NCBI GenBank assembly: GCA_002238825.1
Contig: MPNC01000001.1
Coordinates: 248,001-312,000 of the forward strand
Direction of reading: 5' to 3'
Source of the DNA: SAR202 cluster bacterium bin87
GTDB lineage: Bacteria > Chloroflexota > Dehalococcoidia > Lucifugimonadales > UBA3495
Length of the DNA stretch: 64,000 bases
A model generated the notes under the pieces. It made no database searches, was not told the DNA's origin, and saw nothing but the letters and a program-made list of their open reading frames with translations. This document shows positions 38,118 through 52,230 of the stretch, one piece after another. The position numbers and the translations under genes were made by a program. Each line of letters begins with the position of its first letter. Position 1 is the stretch's first letter.

Positions 38118-40952
38118 TCAACCCATCAATTCGACCCGACAAGGTTCGAGATGCAGGCCGGGCACCCGGGCCATGGGGTTGATGTCCTCAGAAGCCTGCA
38201 ACTCGACTGCCAGCTGTCCGAACAAAGTGGTGATCGAAACGACCCCTGGCGGGACAGCCTGGTCAAGGCAGGCGATCCCGGTGGTACGGTTGCCGGCGGT
38301 CACGACGGCAACCGGCGCATCATTGGAGATGCCCCAGGACGCGGCATCCACCGGGTTGAGGTGCACCTGTTCGTCACGTACGATTCGATTCAGCTCCCCC
38401 GCTTCCACCGTGATCTCGCGCTCACTTTGTAGCAGAACCCTGCCCGGAGCAAGGACCGCAGGGAGATCAGGATTGGTAGTTGGCGCTACGGCGCGGAACA
38501 GTGGCGCTCCCGGCTCAGCTCGCCCGTTAGGGAAACCGGCCGCGTACAAAACCGGGGAAGAGGGACTAGTGGGTGTAGGGCAAGGCCACTGTATCCCGCG
38601 TTCTTCGCGGGTCGTGTAAAGCAACTGGGTCGGGCGGGGAGTATCCATGCCGGTCTGCATGACCAAAGCCGTTTCCCGGGCCAGGCGCGGATAGCTGATC
38701 CCTCGGTAATTTGGCGCCACCGACGCTATCTCATCCATTACCTGGGCGGGTTCATCGTAATTCAGCCCGTCGACGTTCAGCCTCCGGCCCAATTCCGCGA
38801 AAATCCATCCTTCCGGCATGGCGTCATTGTTTCGGACGTTGACCGCCGGCCTGACGCGCTGGATGCGGCGTTCCAGATTGGTGAACGTGCCGTCTTTTTC
38901 GGCGAAGGTCGCGCGGGGAAGCACCACATCGGCAACCTGGGCTACCGGAGAAAGGAAGGTGTCGGCTACGGCGAGAAAATCGAGCTTTTCGAAAACGGCC
39001 AAATCGCTGCCGAGCAGTCCGTTCGAATAGTTGGGGCTGTCTCCGACGAGCAACATCGACGTGATGACGCCGCCCGCGGCTTCGAGCATGGAAGCGGCGC
39101 TCATTCCAGCGGAAGGCGGCAGCGGTGCGCCCCAGATCTGCTCCACGCCGGCGCGATGTGCGTCGTCGAAGGTGGGCGCGCCTCCCGGAAGGCGGTCGGG
39201 GAGACATCCCACATCGATGGCGCCCTGGCCGTTGGCGCCCCCTCGCATGGGAAATATGCCGCCCGCAGGGCGATCAACGTTGCGCGTCAGCAGCGCCAGG
39301 TCGGCCAAAGCCACCACGCATTCGCGGGTGATTTCGGCGGGCAGGTTGTCCAATCCGTACACGATGGCGCCGGTTTCGGCCTCGCCATACATCCTGGCGG
39401 CGCGGGCGATGTCTTCAAGGGAAATGCCCGTCGCAGCGACGGTGTCGTCTCCCAACCGTTCCAGCTCGTAGGCCAACGTGTCGTAGCTGTCAGCGTGTTC
39501 GGAGAGCCATTCGGCGTCGATCAGGCCTTCCTGCAGCACCTGCTTCAAAATCGCGCCCAGGAGCAAAAGCTCGGTTCCCGGCGCCGGCCGGAGCCACAGG
39601 TCGGCGTACCGGGTAAGTTCGACTTCCCGGGTGTCAATGACGATAAGCGGCGTTCCGTTGCGGGATGCGCGCTTGATAGGCACGCCCACCACGTTGTGGC
39701 TTTCGGTCAGGTTGGTGTTGAACACCAGGATGCACCCGGCTTTCTCCAGGTCCCAAATCGAGTTGGTAGCCCCAGGGTATCCGAGGACGTCTTCCAGGGC
39801 GCCGGTCAGGGCGGGCTGCGTGTTGCCCGAATGATCGATGTTGTTGGTGTTCATGCCAACGCGGGCAAACTTCTGGGCCAGGTATAGCTCCTCGTTGGTG
39901 CTATCGGGGGCGGTGATCAGGCCGAAGCCCTGGCCGGTCTGGTGAGGGCGAAGTCGCTCAGCAATGAGGTCTAGAGCCTCGTCCCATGTAGCATTTTCCA
40001 GCCGACCGTTGCGTCGGATCATGGGGCGGCGCAGGCGCTGGCCGCTGGTGAGGTGGCTAAGGCCGAATTTGCCCTTGTAGCAGGCCTGACCGCGGTTGGC
40101 GGGCGAATTGAGCTCGGGAATGGCGCGAATCACGCGGCCCTGCTCGTTGATCTCGAGATTCATCTGACAGCCCACTGGGCAGTGGGTGCAGATGGTGCGT
40201 TCCACGCGCGCCGGCTTTTCCCATTTGCCCTCCCGCTCGGTCAGGGCCCCGACCGGGCACACATCGATGCAGGCCCCGCAGAACTCGCAACCCGACTCCA
40301 GCAGGGACGTCCCGAAGGACGTGCCAACCAGCGCATTTCCGGATCGTTCGGTGAAGCAGATGGCGTTGTCTCCGCGCATTTCTTCGCACGCCCGGACACA
40401 TCGGCCGCAGGTGATGCAAAGGTTGAGGTCCCGGTCGTAGAAGGGATCGCTCACCTCCAGCGGAATGTCGCGATACACATAGGTCATGGGAGATTCGAGC
40501 TCCATGCCCAGATACCGGACGGTGTCCTTGAACTCGCAACGCTCGTTCTTGGGACAGGTGATGCAACGGTCGTTGACCGAAACGTGACGCAGGCAGACGT
40601 CGGAGGGACCGCAGATTTCGACGCGGTGGCAGGTGAGGCAGCCATTGGGATGCTCGGCGATAAGCATTTGCATGACGGAGCGGCGGAGCTCGATAACGTC
40701 GGGGGTCTCGCTCCACACGGTCATGCCGTCGGTGGCGGCCAGGGTGCAGGCGGCCGGGAACCCGGGCACGCGACCTCGTTCGTTTTCCGCGACCACCACG
40801 CACATGCGGCACGCGGCATAGGGCTTCATGCCCGAGTGGTAGCAGAGATATGGAACATACACGCCGGCGTCGATGGCGGCTTCGAGCACCATCTTCCCCG
40901 GTTGGGTCTTGATTTCCACACCGTCGATGGAGATGGTTATATCGTCAGGCAT
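38118..40952 (-). CDS. FdhA/NuoG-like molybdopterin oxidoreductase subunit, catalytic Cys/Sec missing
   Basis: A 944-residue protein laid out like the alpha subunit of NAD-dependent formate dehydrogenases: an N-terminal 2Fe-2S domain (LCYHSGMKPYAACRMCVV, then PAACTL), a His-Cys 4Fe-4S domain (HPNGCLTCHRVEICGPSDVC), an extra CITCPKNERC set, two ferredoxin 4Fe-4S motifs (CITCGRCVRAC, CEFCGACIDVCPVG), the Mo-domain 4Fe-4S motif (CTHCPVGCQMNLEIN) and bis-MGD domains. Where formate dehydrogenases have NNVDHCARxCH, this one has NNIDHSGNTQP: the catalytic Cys/Sec is Gln and the next His is Pro. The N-terminal clusters are intact. The ATG at 40952 after AGGA is used. The nuoF-like and nuoE-like genes lie upstream. 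Confidence 0.9.
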   Translation of the reverse strand: MPDDITISIDGVEIKTQPGKMVLEAAIDAGVYVPYLCYHSGMKPYAACRMCVVVAENERGRVPGFPAACTLAATDGMTVWSETPDVIELRRSVMQMLIAEHPNGCLTCHRVEICGPSDVCLRHVSVNDRCITCPKNERCEFKDTVRYLGMELESPMTYVYRDIPLEVSDPFYDRDLNLCITCGRCVRACEEMRGDNAICFTERSGNALVGTSFGTSLLESGCEFCGACIDVCPVGALTEREGKWEKPARVERTICTHCPVGCQMNLEINEQGRVIRAIPELNSPANRGQACYKGKFGLSHLTSGQRLRRPMIRRNGRLENATWDEALDLIAERLRPHQTGQGFGLITAPDSTNEELYLAQKFARVGMNTNNIDHSGNTQPALTGALEDVLGYPGATNSIWDLEKAGCILVFNTNLTESHNVVGVPIKRASRNGTPLIVIDTREVELTRYADLWLRPAPGTELLLLGAILKQVLQEGLIDAEWLSEHADSYDTLAYELERLGDDTVAATGISLEDIARAARMYGEAETGAIVYGLDNLPAEITRECVVALADLALLTRNVDRPAGGIFPMRGGANGQGAIDVGCLPDRLPGGAPTFDDAHRAGVEQIWGAPLPPSAGMSAASMLEAAGGVITSMLLVGDSPNYSNGLLGSDLAVFEKLDFLAVADTFLSPVAQVADVVLPRATFAEKDGTFTNLERRIQRVRPAVNVRNNDAMPEGWIFAELGRRLNVDGLNYDEPAQVMDEIASVAPNYRGISYPRLARETALVMQTGMDTPRPTQLLYTTREERGIQWPCPTPTSPSSPVLYAAGFPNGRAEPGAPLFRAVAPTTNPDLPAVLAPGRVLLQSEREITVEAGELNRIVRDEQVHLNPVDAASWGISNDAPVAVVTAGNRTTGIACLDQAVPPGVVSITTLFGQLAVELQASEDINPMARVPGLHLEPCRVELMG

Positions 40953-41002
40953 GGCGTGTCCTATATAGCGCAACGAGCAGCGGCAAAATCAGCGTAGGCT
41001 AA

Positions 41003-42760
41003 TCAGCGGCGGGTTAGGCGGGGCGAGAATACCTGGTCCGGGCAATCGCCGGTGTGGCGCTTTTCGCGAATATGAGCGTCAAACTCGTGCCCGAAATACC
41101 GGAGGGCGGAGGAGACCGGGTTGAACCCGAGTTGTCCGTGTCCACACAAAGACCCGGCCTGCATGTTTTCGCCGATGTTCCGCATGAGCGCGAGGTCTTC
41201 CTCGGTGCCTTCCAGGTTGCTGATGCGTTCCAGGACTTCCAGCAGGTGGCTCATGCCCATGCGGCAGGGGAAGCACTTCCCGCACGATTCGTACTGGCAG
41301 AACGCGATCAGGTTGCGGGTCAGGTCGACCACGCACGTATCCTCGTCGGCGACGATGATCCCGCCGGAACCCAGGATTGCGCCGGCCGCGCGGAAGACGT
41401 CAAAGTCCAGGACGAGGTCCAGATTGGCGTCGCTGGCAGAGAGCACGCCGCCCAACGGGCCGCCGGTTTGGAGCAGTTTCATGGACTTGCCATTGGGAAC
41501 GCCGCCCGCCATGTCGAAGAGAACCTGACGCAGGGTCATGCCCAACGGAACTTCGATCAAACCGGTGTATTTGATATCGCCGGACAGGCAGAGGATTGCG
41601 GTGCCGCTGCTTCCGTTGATCCTGTTGTCGGGATCGGGTGGTGTGCCGATGCTGGCGAACCAATCCCCGCCGCGCGCCACGATCTCCGGCACGTAAGCGA
41701 GGGTCTTGACGTTGTTGATGTTCGACGGTTTGCCGAACACCCCCACCTGTGCGGGGAATGGCGGACGAAAACGAGGCATGGACCGCTTGCCTTCGATGGC
41801 CTCCATCAACGCCGTTTCCTCACCGGACACGTAGGAATCGCCCGTCAAAGCAACCTCGACGTCGAAGGAGAAATCGGTCCCCAGGATGTTCTGGCCCAGG
41901 AGGCCGAGGTCGTAGGCCTGTTGGATGACGGCGCGAGTCCGGTCGATGGGCTGGTTGTGACCGTGGCGGATGAAGATGTAGCCGCGATTTGCGTTGCAGG
42001 CGTACCCCGCGATGGTGATGCCTTCGACGACGGTGGCCGGATCGCTTTCCAGGATACCCCGGTCGTTGAAAGCGCCCGGGTCGCCTTCCTCGCAATTGCA
42101 AAGAATGTACTTGTTCGGGTCCGGATTGCCAGCCAGGAACCCCCATTTGACTCCGGCCGGGAAGGCCGCGCCTCCACGACCCCGCAAGCCGGAGGTGCGA
42201 ACCTCGCCGAGGGTGTCACCGGGAGACATCTCAGTGAGAGCCTTGTTCAAGGCCGAGTACCCACCGTTGGCGATGTATTGATAGAGATCGGACGGATCGA
42301 TGTTGCCGGCGTTGCGCAGGGCGATGCGCTGCTGCAAGGCCATCATCGGGTGGTCCTGCAGGTTCGAAATTCCTGCGGGCCCCTGCGTTGGCTCGCCGAG
42401 ATAACCGATGGCGTGCTCCACCAACGGATTGCCGCCGGCCACATGCTCTCGGACGATGCGCTCGGCTAGCTCGGGCGTGACCTGACTGTAGAACACCCGG
42501 GAACCGTTGGGCATCTGGACGTCGAGCAGGGGCTCGGCGAAGCACAGCCCCAGGGTGCCGACCTCCGACACGTTGGCCGCCACCTGCTGGCGCTCCAGTG
42601 CGGAGTTGACGGCGGCGAGGACTTCGAACCCACCGGCGGCCTCACCGGCCAGCCCGGTGCCGACGCGGATCCACGGCCGGTCGCCCGTGGTCAGGTTCTC
42701 CCAGCGGCGCCGCGCTTCGCCGAGGATGTCGGTAAACGGGGATTCCGTTTGTGCAGTCAC
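41003..42760 (-). CDS. NuoF/HoxF-like NAD(H)- and FMN-binding subunit
   Basis: A 585-residue NADH-dehydrogenase 51-kDa-type subunit. The core has the FMN/NAD segment GLRGRGGAAFPAGVKW, the NADH loop CNCEEGDPGAFNDRG, SGEETALMEAIEG, and the 4Fe-4S motif ESCGKCFPCRMG with the fourth Cys in GSLCGHGQ. An N-terminal thioredoxin-like domain (about 1-130) resembles those of HoxF/HndC but has lost the cluster: GTGLAG and VGTLGLC replace the GTC and VGCxGxC forms, leaving one of four Cys. It lies 50 bases before the FdhA-like gene and 15 bases after nuoE. Confidence 0.93.
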   Translation of the reverse strand: MTAQTESPFTDILGEARRRWENLTTGDRPWIRVGTGLAGEAAGGFEVLAAVNSALERQQVAANVSEVGTLGLCFAEPLLDVQMPNGSRVFYSQVTPELAERIVREHVAGGNPLVEHAIGYLGEPTQGPAGISNLQDHPMMALQQRIALRNAGNIDPSDLYQYIANGGYSALNKALTEMSPGDTLGEVRTSGLRGRGGAAFPAGVKWGFLAGNPDPNKYILCNCEEGDPGAFNDRGILESDPATVVEGITIAGYACNANRGYIFIRHGHNQPIDRTRAVIQQAYDLGLLGQNILGTDFSFDVEVALTGDSYVSGEETALMEAIEGKRSMPRFRPPFPAQVGVFGKPSNINNVKTLAYVPEIVARGGDWFASIGTPPDPDNRINGSSGTAILCLSGDIKYTGLIEVPLGMTLRQVLFDMAGGVPNGKSMKLLQTGGPLGGVLSASDANLDLVLDFDVFRAAGAILGSGGIIVADEDTCVVDLTRNLIAFCQYESCGKCFPCRMGMSHLLEVLERISNLEGTEEDLALMRNIGENMQAGSLCGHGQLGFNPVSSALRYFGHEFDAHIREKRHTGDCPDQVFSPRLTRR

Positions 42761-42775
42761 GAGGACAATCGCTGA

Positions 42776-43255
42776 TCAGTGCGCGGGGGCGGAGGTCAGG
42801 GCCTGGGAGATTTTCGAACGGGCGTTGTCGGGAGTAATGCGCCCGGCCAGATGATGGTTGATCGCCATCACCGGAGCATGGGCACACGCGCCGAGGCAGG
42901 TGTTGTAGCGCAGGGTCGCTTTTCCGTCGGGGGTATCACCCTCGTCGGACAACCCCAACGCTTCCTGCGCGGCGGAGATCACCGCGGTTGCGCCCATCAC
43001 GTGACAGGAAGGGCCCCAGCAGACCTCCACGCGGAGATCTGTCGGCGGATCAAACCGGAAGTTTGGATAAAAGGTGGCTACCGCCCAAACGTCGTTGACC
43101 GTAACATCCATCCGGACGGAGACAGCGTCCACCGCCTCGGTCGGGATGTAACCGATTGCGTCCTCCACCGCCAGCAGGGATGAAAGGACAGTGACCGTGC
43201 TTTGTAGCTGGTCATTCACCGCCCGATCGATGAGCTGAAGGGTGGCATCGTCCAT
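42776..43255 (-). CDS. NuoE-like 2Fe-2S subunit
   Basis: A 159-residue thioredoxin-like 2Fe-2S subunit of the 24-kDa type. It contains IGYIPTEAVDAVSVRMDV, VWAVATFYPNFRFDPPTDLR, and the four cluster Cys in VCWGPSCHVMG and YNTCLGACAHAP. It is the first gene of a nuoE - nuoF - fdhA-like operon. It connects the NADH site of NuoF to the rest of the module. A promoter with an extended -10 (GTGCTAAACT) lies about 40 bases upstream of the ATG at 43255. Confidence 0.94.
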   Translation of the reverse strand: MDDATLQLIDRAVNDQLQSTVTVLSSLLAVEDAIGYIPTEAVDAVSVRMDVTVNDVWAVATFYPNFRFDPPTDLRVEVCWGPSCHVMGATAVISAAQEALGLSDEGDTPDGKATLRYNTCLGACAHAPVMAINHHLAGRITPDNARSKISQALTSAPAH

Positions 43256-43357: not shown

Positions 43358-44014
43358 TCAGTTCTCGGCGGCTTCCCGATTTTCCAGGGCTTTGTCCATC
43401 ACGCGCTGGAAAACCTCGTAGGGCTGGGCGCCGCTGAAAAGCAGGTTGTCAAACACGAAGGTGGGTATGCCGCGGATGCCGTAGCCCAGCGCTTCGTGGT
43501 ACTGGTCAACCACCTTCTGGGCGTAGTGCCCCGATTCGACGCGTTCGCGCAACTCGGCTCCATCGAGGCCGACTCCAGAGCCGATATCGGCGAGGACCGA
43601 AGGGTCTCCTAGGTTGGCCCCGTGGTCCCAGTACGCCTCGTAGGCAGCATGGTGGTACTCGAGGAATTTGCCCTGTTCCTGTGCGTACTCAGTGGCCTGA
43701 AGGGAGTAGAGGCTGTTGGGCGTGTATTTGGGCGGCCGCATCACCAGATTGGCCTCCCGGGCGTGAGTGCGGAGAGGATCGGCCAGCTCGTCGTCGGTCT
43801 CACCGGGGCGAGACTCGCGCGGGCGGCCTTCCTGGGGAGTATCGGGGCGCAGGAGGTAGGCGCGGCCCTCGACGGTGATGTCGTACTCTTCCGATAGTTT
43901 GTCGACGCGCTCAAGGCCGACATAGCACCAGGGTCAAATGTAGTCGTACCACACGATCACATGGACGGGATTGGGGTCGTCCGGGTGGCTGTGGGCCGGC
44001 GGCTGGGTGGTCAT
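43358..44014 (-). CDS. DsbA/FrnE-family oxidoreductase with in-frame UGA at the active-site cysteine (candidate selenoprotein)
   Basis: Read from the ATG at 44014 (near-perfect Shine-Dalgarno GGAGGTGAT five to six bases upstream) to the stop at 43358 this is a 219-codon frame with one interruption: TGA at 43936-43934, codon 27. The context is VIVWYDYI-TGA-PWCYVG, so the TGA replaces the first Cys of the CPWC motif that family members have here. Downstream, RAYLLRPDTPQEGRP, FLEYHHAAYEAYW and the cis-Pro loop RGIPTFVF are intact, with no other lesion in 191 residues. The protein would be a cytoplasmic thiol/selenol-disulfide oxidoreductase with a UPWC site. A stem-loop follows at 43900-43922. 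If the TGA is a plain stop, this is a pseudogene. A gene caller would give only 43358-43744. Confidence 0.72.
43900..43922 (-). promoter_or_regulatory. Candidate bacterial SECIS element
   Basis: In the mRNA, bases 12-18 and 28-34 after the UGA pair as a 7-bp stem (one G-U), with a 9-base loop CUUGAGCGC starting 19 bases after the UGA. The distance is within the range known for bacterial SECIS hairpins, and the loop contains G residues, although not in its first two positions. Folding software and a SelB-type motif search would be needed. Confidence 0.4.
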
Positions 44015-44078
44015 GGCATCACCTCCGGGAGCGGGGCAGTTGCGGAGCGAGAGATTAGCGGCGTCGGGAGGCCATTGG

Positions 44079-44789
44079 CTAGCAGGACACCAATCGGTCC
44101 AGCAGCGGGTACAGCCCTTCCAGACTGTCGATATGGTCGCAATCGGCGACGTCGGAGTGGAAACCACCGCGGTCGATGAGTACCGGGAGGAGTCCGGCGT
44201 CTCGGGCGCCCTGCACGTCGGAACGCGGCTGGTCGCCAACGTGCATCGCCTGTTCGGGGCGCAGAGCCATGCGGTGCAGAGCGGCTTCGAAGATCGCGGT
44301 GGCGGGCTTCTCGCCGGTCTCGCGGCTGGTGATGCAGAATTCCAGGTACTGCCGGATCCCCAGGCTCTGAGTGAGTTCGTCCATATCGCGGCGGAGGTTG
44401 GTCAGGACAGCCAACCGGTAGCCGCGTTCGCTCAACTCTTCCAGCACGGGGCGGGTTTCCTCAAACTCCACCAGCTCCTTGGGCACAGAAATTGCCATGT
44501 CCCAGATCTGCTTGGCCATGCGAAGTGACACGGCGACGCCCGATTCCTCGAGAATGATCTGCTCGTACCGCGCGAAGAATTCATCTCGAGCGGGAGTGTC
44601 ACGTTCGCCCAGGGGCCAACGATGATTTTCCTCGTTGAAATAGAGGTCGGCGATGGCGTAGCCGCGAGCCAACCGGTCTGCAGGTACGCGAATACCCAGG
44701 TTCTGACACGCGGCATGCTGGATCTGGGGCAACGGCGGCCAGAAACGTACCAGCGTATTGTAAAAATCGAAAAAGATGGCCTCGATCAT
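44079..44789 (-). CDS. HAD superfamily hydrolase
   Basis: A 236-residue HAD phosphatase with a C1 helical cap. Motif I is IFFDFYNTLVRF (DxYNT), motif II LAVLTNLRRD, motif III Lys in TGEKPATAIFEAAL, and motif IV HVGDQPRSDVQGARDAG. The DFYNTL form is typical of 2-haloacid-dehalogenase-like and phosphoglycolate-phosphatase-like members. The start at 44789 (MIEAIFFDF) is preferred; an ATG eight codons upstream is in frame. It sits between otsB (157 bases upstream, own promoter) and the DsbA/FrnE-like gene (64 bases downstream). Substrate unknown. Confidence 0.85.
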   Translation of the reverse strand: MIEAIFFDFYNTLVRFWPPLPQIQHAACQNLGIRVPADRLARGYAIADLYFNEENHRWPLGERDTPARDEFFARYEQIILEESGVAVSLRMAKQIWDMAISVPKELVEFEETRPVLEELSERGYRLAVLTNLRRDMDELTQSLGIRQYLEFCITSRETGEKPATAIFEAALHRMALRPEQAMHVGDQPRSDVQGARDAGLLPVLIDRGGFHSDVADCDHIDSLEGLYPLLDRLVSC

Positions 44790-44849
44790 CTGCGGGGGGC
44801 GCAGGCAGGGCATTCAGTCTCGCCGGGCGACCCGATGCTGCGCGGGCCA

Positions 44850-51899: not shown

Positions 51900-52146
51900 G
51901 TTTGTAGTGGTCGTGCTACACGGGGAGCTGGCGGTGCCCTGAACCCGCAACCCGCCACAGCGGGGTGGAATTCCTCCCCTAGGCAAGGCGCAAGGGCCAA
52001 TTTCCCAGGGAATGGCGCTGAGGGCCGGGTCCCACGCGGCGCAGGCTCGTGAACTCCGCCAGGGCTTGACGGCAGCAACGGTAAGCGATGTCCCGCGGGT
52101 GCCGTGGGAGTGCCTGGCCTGAGCCAATCCCGACGATATGCCCCCA
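51889..52146 (+). ncRNA. ffs: Signal recognition particle RNA, large bacterial type
   Basis: The Alu domain reads GUGCUACACGGGGAGCUGGC then GGUGCCCUGAACCCGCAACC, closely matching Bacillus-type scRNA. The S-domain apex follows with CCAGGGCUUGACGGCAGCAA and then GUCCCGCGGGUGCCGUGGGA and GUGCCUGGCCUGAGCC. The apical tetraloop is UGAC rather than the more common GGAA, one of the accepted URRC forms. Ends are uncertain: GGGCATA (51889-51895) can pair with TATGCCC (52137-52143) as a closing helix, but a promoter candidate would start transcription near 51906. This RNA partners Ffh to target membrane and secreted proteins. Confidence 0.88.
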
Positions 52147-52230
52147 GGCTGTAGTCAAAGGGAGGTGCTCGGCCACTTTTTGATTCCCCTTTGGTCATGC
52201 GGATACGGGTGTGACCAGCGCAGTACAAGC

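Follow-up and report, generated by a model that had tools for sequence, protein, structure and literature searches.

We report here that a gene carried on the minus strand of a 64,000-nucleotide stretch of DNA from SAR202 cluster bacterium bin87 (hereafter the window) almost certainly encodes a selenoprotein, the in-frame UGA at its codon 27 being decoded as selenocysteine (Sec). The window corresponds to G000:C32:248001-312000 in a source assembly of 4.96 Mb and 67 contigs. Judging from its sequence, the product is very probably a Sec-containing FrnE-like oxidoreductase, whatever its exact substrate. The original prediction had proposed a DsbA/FrnE-like selenoprotein with UGA at the first active-site residue, and this proposal is now strongly supported by the Sec machinery of the genome, the conservation of the TGA, the constraint on the gene and a downstream hairpin resembling a bacterial selenocysteine insertion sequence (bSECIS). 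The features of the locus are the following.

43358..44014, minus strand: gene of the FrnE/DsbA-like selenoprotein, from ATG to TGA, encoding 218 residues (PF01323, E 4e-34; conservation; fold)
43934..43936, minus strand: in-frame TGA, codon 27, in all likelihood read as selenocysteine (Sec27 of UPWC); aligns with the Cys of CPWC in homologues
43925..43927, minus strand: TGC, codon of Cys30, the second residue of the active site; no variation at this column among 43 sequences
43463..43465, minus strand: cis-Pro codon, Pro184 of GIPTF; invariant in 43 sequences
44018..44026, minus strand: Shine-Dalgarno sequence GGAGGTGAT, by direct reading
43900..43922, minus strand: bSECIS-like hairpin; its loop, UUGAGC by prediction, occupies 43909-43914, 19 nt downstream of the UGA

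A reading frame interrupted only by TGA

Re-translation of 43358-44014 from the ATG at 44014 gave a single internal stop, in VIVWYDYI*PWCYVG, and no second lesion, the gene ending on a TGA of its own. The ribosome-binding site described in the original prediction was found again just before the ATG (GGAGGTGAT, 44026-44018), and the cis-Pro region reads GIRGIPTF, intact as claimed. TGA is a normal stop here, since it terminates both the selenoprotein gene and 13 of the 33 long frames of the window that are biased towards GC at third codon positions. Calling of open reading frames (ORFs) with genetic code table 11 recovered only a C-terminal ORF of 128 amino acids located downstream of the TGA (43358-43744), as had been anticipated; standard annotation drops the active site of the enzyme across a whole group of uncultured bacteria. 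A scan for conserved in-frame TGA codons, performed on positions 1-47400 of the window against one congener, returned many matches, and the codon at 43936 (minus strand) was the only one still plausible after filtering on codon position. The other 11 candidates appeared to be antisense to large ORFs when their strands were compared by eye with the ORF list.

The source genome encodes the machinery for Sec insertion

The absence of Sec genes from the window, noted in the original prediction, holds for the window itself, but these genes are not missing: they sit on other contigs of the genome. A tRNA-Sec with a TCA anticodon was found at C28:59562-59654 (66.4 bits; called tRNA-SeC by ARAGORN), SelB on C49 (353 bits), SelA on C16 (545 bits) and SelD on C42 (373 bits), so that the four components expected of a bacterium making selenoproteins are all encoded. 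The selD gene (G000:C42:681408-682328; L105:3001-3921) carries an in-frame TGA of its own at the active-site motif, HCAG*AAKLS, from which SelD of this genome, too, is probably a selenoprotein; such cases are known.

The TGA is conserved and both of its flanks are under constraint

The gene was compared with a set of 147 relatives, 103 of which have a match; those bearing names are metagenome-assembled genomes (MAGs) of Dehalococcoidia or Chloroflexota. In the genus, TGA occupies exactly codon 27 in 13/13 congeners, which are 81-94% identical. Of the orthologues of the family and order, at about 40% identity or more, nearly all contain exactly one stop, again TGA at codon 27. The TGA column coincides with the conserved Cys of CPWC in homologues. 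The ratio of nonsynonymous to synonymous substitution rates (dN/dS) was 0.03-0.08 on the 3' side of the TGA, and the 14 codons on the 5' side showed 0-4 replacement versus 2-8 synonymous changes per pair. These sequence comparisons indicate that purifying selection operates on both sides of the TGA.

Many relatives within the family and order also possess a second clade of Sec-type paralogues, DYT-U-P(F/Y)C (for instance L091-L095); the genome of the window has a single match and no member of this clade. A Cys-type branch reading CPHC (L096 and L097, from G031 and G018, both genomes with SelA) joins the second clade, and L100, which resembles these two sequences, has the TGA with its second Cys replaced by Ser.

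A bSECIS-like hairpin follows the UGA

A recurrent stem with a small loop was observed between +15 and +37, counted from the UGA. Among 55 orthologues, the minimum of synonymous diversity of the whole gene lies at codons +5 to +11, within the stem arms, where codon usage was GTC 38/39, GGC 49/55, CTG 50/54, GTC 37/40 and GAC 37/40; in the loop, the codons for E and R showed synonymous diversity at background. In 28 phylum-wide sequences, the stem pairs form in 86.7% of cells versus at most 60.2% when the stem is slid, and two-sided stem changes numbered 10 versus 2.0 in shuffles, so that the hairpin covaries at the scale of the phylum. The stem is retained in lineages encoding other residues, as in UCGACUCGGUCCGAGUCGA, which spans the codons for IDSVRVE.

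PMC13188914 gives a bSECIS model with a loop of 3-9 nt, a stem of 4-16 bp, a spacing of 16-37 nt, a minimum free energy of at most -7.5 and a G within the first two loop positions. This model fits 51 of the 55 orthologues versus 327 of 878 control windows taken from the same genes. RNAalifold returned no structure, either from the 28-sequence alignment or from 53 unique orthologues, so that the case for the hairpin is made by the counts of pairs and by the constraint on synonymous sites. Folded as a single sequence, the hairpin of the window was uninformative (z -0.87).

Exchange of Sec and Cys across the phylum

Within the order, one orthologue (L062) carries a Cys codon, TGC. Its genome (G091) has neither SelA nor SelB over cut-off, its best tRNA-Sec match is a tRNA-Ser, and the downstream stem, as read from the sequence, is broken. 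The two TGA-bearing sister genomes of G091 have SelA, SelB and tRNA-Sec. Incomplete TGA-bearing assemblies devoid of a full SelA often still show SelB or tRNA-Sec (G020, G036, G039, G073, G075, G104 and G127). In a sample of 400 genomes of the phylum, SelA was present in 64/66 TGA-type genomes versus 257/334 others (Fisher p 3e-5, relatedness being ignored), and Cys homologues were found in genomes without SelA (G491, G370 and G354). The 98-row tree requires 8 Sec/Cys changes, at least 6 of them on strongly supported branches, as counted regardless of direction, and the independent contrasts that it provides are all in the expected direction or tied.

We tentatively consider that the FrnE-like proteins of Chloroflexota form a lineage both old and spread over the whole phylum, in which Sec would be the standing state, swapped to Cys mainly, not only, upon loss of the machinery, and near-obligatory in the order of the window. 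If Sec is indeed near-obligatory there, a cytosolic redox reaction poorly served by Cys would be implied. The repeated exchanges between relatives make the family suitable for testing the benefit of selenium to a disulfide oxidoreductase, and its hairpins constitute a phylogenetically deep bSECIS data set.

Decoding of the UGA weighed against other explanations

Were the gene a pseudogene or a nonsense mutant, the TGA would be a real stop and the remainder would be decaying, an account to which the internal stop and the C-terminal ORF, the only one called under table 11, lend some appearance. It is met by the presence of this TGA in all congeners and in nearly all orthologues of the order, with one stop in each, by the low dN/dS after the TGA and by a hairpin under selection; the chance nonsense mutation that the original prediction had already judged improbable is thus extremely unlikely. 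A single-base error of assembly or sequencing has to be considered as well, the window being part of an assembly and the comparison one of assembled sequences, but independent assemblies carry the TGA, among them the single-contig genomes G002, G006 and G010 and named MAGs of different projects, and such an error is vanishingly improbable. The shared TGA and the constraint on both flanks exclude these two explanations, the former being refuted by conservation and purifying selection and the latter by the independent genomes. Genome-wide recoding of TGA (as Trp, Gly or Cys), or its read-through by a near-cognate tRNA, has nothing specific in its favour; it conflicts with the use of TGA as terminator of this gene and of other long frames, and with the presence of a Sec-specific tRNA, SelA and SelB and the alignment of the TGA with the catalytic Cys, and we regard it as very unlikely.

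Several observations weigh against decoding as Sec, or against its tie to the machinery. Two incomplete TGA-bearing assemblies (G045 and G047) have neither SelA nor SelB over cut-off, and the same applies to G241 and G361, TGA-type genomes from the sample of the phylum, for which either an incomplete assembly or a recent loss of the Sec machinery could account. Cys homologues also occur in genomes with both SelA and SelB (G447, G518, G412 and G523), from which Cys can serve there, and the number of independent Sec/Cys contrasts is too small for a sign test to reach significance. The hairpin of the window agrees with every clause of the bSECIS model except that on the loop G, UUGAGC having its G at position 3, off by one nucleotide, and hairpin energies at the level of the genus are no better than those of synonymous shuffles (z near 0). 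With these points included, decoding of UGA27 as Sec remains the reading that we hold as nearly certain.

An FrnE-like protein, almost certainly with Sec in its active site

The protein scores 118.5 bits against PF01323 (DSBA), for a gathering score of 25.6, which places it in the DsbA superfamily. Its solved relatives by sequence are FrnE of Deinococcus radiodurans (5cnw, E 4e-15), SCO1869 and HCCA isomerase. The AlphaFold2 model, in which Sec was modelled as Cys, has a pLDDT of 92.5, and the predicted fold is closest to FrnE (5co3/5cnw; TM-score 0.82, 25% identity), in accordance with the earlier FrnE/DsbA-like assignment. Weaker fold matches were obtained with HCCA isomerase (3fz5/2imd) and glutathione S-transferase (GST) kappa (1r4w/3rpp), with TM-scores of 0.64-0.72. 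Among 43 homologues, D24, Y25, residue 27, P28, C30, L55, P57, W129, G179 and the cis-Pro P184 are invariant. With FrnE as nearest neighbour by both sequence and fold, the UPWC site and the invariant Pro184 support placing the protein in the FrnE subfamily; the C-terminal CX4C motif, which many though not all FrnE proteins carry, was not found in it, Cys30 being its sole Cys. The N-terminus, MTTQPPAHSHPDDPNPV, shows no hydrophobic stretch by direct reading. None of the curated NCBIfam models exceeded its cut-off with the window protein. NF041057 (Rcas_1661 thioredoxin-like (seleno)lipoprotein) matches the C-terminal half only, residues 96-208, with 56.5 bits versus a cut-off of 190, and no lipoprotein signal is visible in the protein.

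FrnE proteins have been described as cytoplasmic thiol oxidoreductases of the DsbA family with a CP(W/F)C site (PMC8945050). According to the same source, the CX4C motif is not obligatory and is missing from FrnE of D. maricopensis and Streptomyces roseofulvus, while FrnE of D. radiodurans reportedly works as a disulfide reductase/isomerase, and cells that lose it become more sensitive to cadmium and diamide (PMC8945050). The window protein resembles DR_0659 (5cnw, 5co3) and SCO1869 (3gl5) by its fold (TM-score 0.78-0.82), about 25% identity, the CP(W/F)C site and perhaps a cytoplasmic location; it differs from them by having Sec where their site has its first Cys and by the missing CX4C.

The product is most likely a cytosolic thiol/selenol-disulfide oxidoreductase in which Sec27 would attack and Cys30 would resolve. 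SelA, SelB, SelD and tRNA-Sec would decode UGA27 as Sec, directed by the hairpin immediately 3' of the UGA. By analogy with the descriptions of FrnE in PMC8945050, the selenolate of Sec27 might then attack a disulfide or an oxidised thiol, Cys30 might resolve the mixed selenide-sulfide, and thioredoxin or a similar reductant would re-reduce the Sec-Cys bridge, an external reductant being proposed because there is no C-terminal CX4C to do so. Such an enzyme could reduce or isomerise disulfides rapidly and so serve thiol repair or the defence against oxidative stress. An FrnE-like reductase role is the one towards which we lean.

It is also conceivable, if rather unlikely, that Sec is incorporated into an enzyme of another kind, a peroxidase, a GST-kappa-like transferase or a small-molecule isomerase. 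UxxC proteins are often peroxide reducers, and the fold also resembles those of HCCA isomerase and GST kappa. A reductase is better indicated by FrnE, a reported disulfide reducer (PMC8945050) and the nearest relative by fold and sequence, and by the pairing of UPWC with cis-Pro, which is typical of disulfide oxidoreductases.

Relation to known selenoproteins

Sec-containing DsbA-like proteins are a kind already known, as follows from several published listings. The Global Ocean Sampling (GOS) survey lists DsbA-like (PF01323) UxxC selenoproteins, with 63 sequences under DsbA 1 (PMC2398784), which bears out the earlier statement that such proteins are known from environmental data. PMC5029168 counts 45 DsbA-like selenoproteins in 41 organisms, PMC13188914 has the DsbA-like UxxC selenoprotein as form 1, and two Asgard cases have been described (PMC11227280). 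As judged from their descriptions, the proteins of GOS, PMC5029168 and PMC13188914 share with ours the PF01323 domain, Sec for the first Cys of CxxC and common Cys homologues. The selenoproteome literature searched, in its accessible portions, mentions neither Chloroflexi nor FrnE, and a search joining selenoprotein and FrnE gave no relevant paper, subscription papers lying mostly outside both searches. Within that literature, what appears new here is the wide spread and near-fixed state of Sec in Chloroflexota.

Genomic neighbourhood

The two adjacent genes are given as context only.

44079..44813, minus strand: HAD-family hydrolase, 64 nt upstream on the same strand; synteny kept in the genus
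42776..43255, minus strand: NuoE-like 2Fe-2S protein, 102 nt downstream

In congeners, the gap to the NuoE-like gene ranges from about 100 to 1900 nt. A function based on synteny was considered and rejected: the neighbours (trehalose genes, HAD, NuoEFG) stay with the selenoprotein gene within the genus only. Genes resembling NuoE/NuoF/NuoG or formate dehydrogenases occupy the region 38118-43255 (minus strand), and their large subunit reads NNIDHSGNTQPALTGAL at the metal-ligand position. Formate dehydrogenases have a Cys or Sec metal ligand at this place, and the large subunit may therefore not be a formate dehydrogenase. Elsewhere in the window, a bacterial large signal recognition particle RNA (RF01854, 146.9 bits) was found at 51911-52172 on the plus strand.
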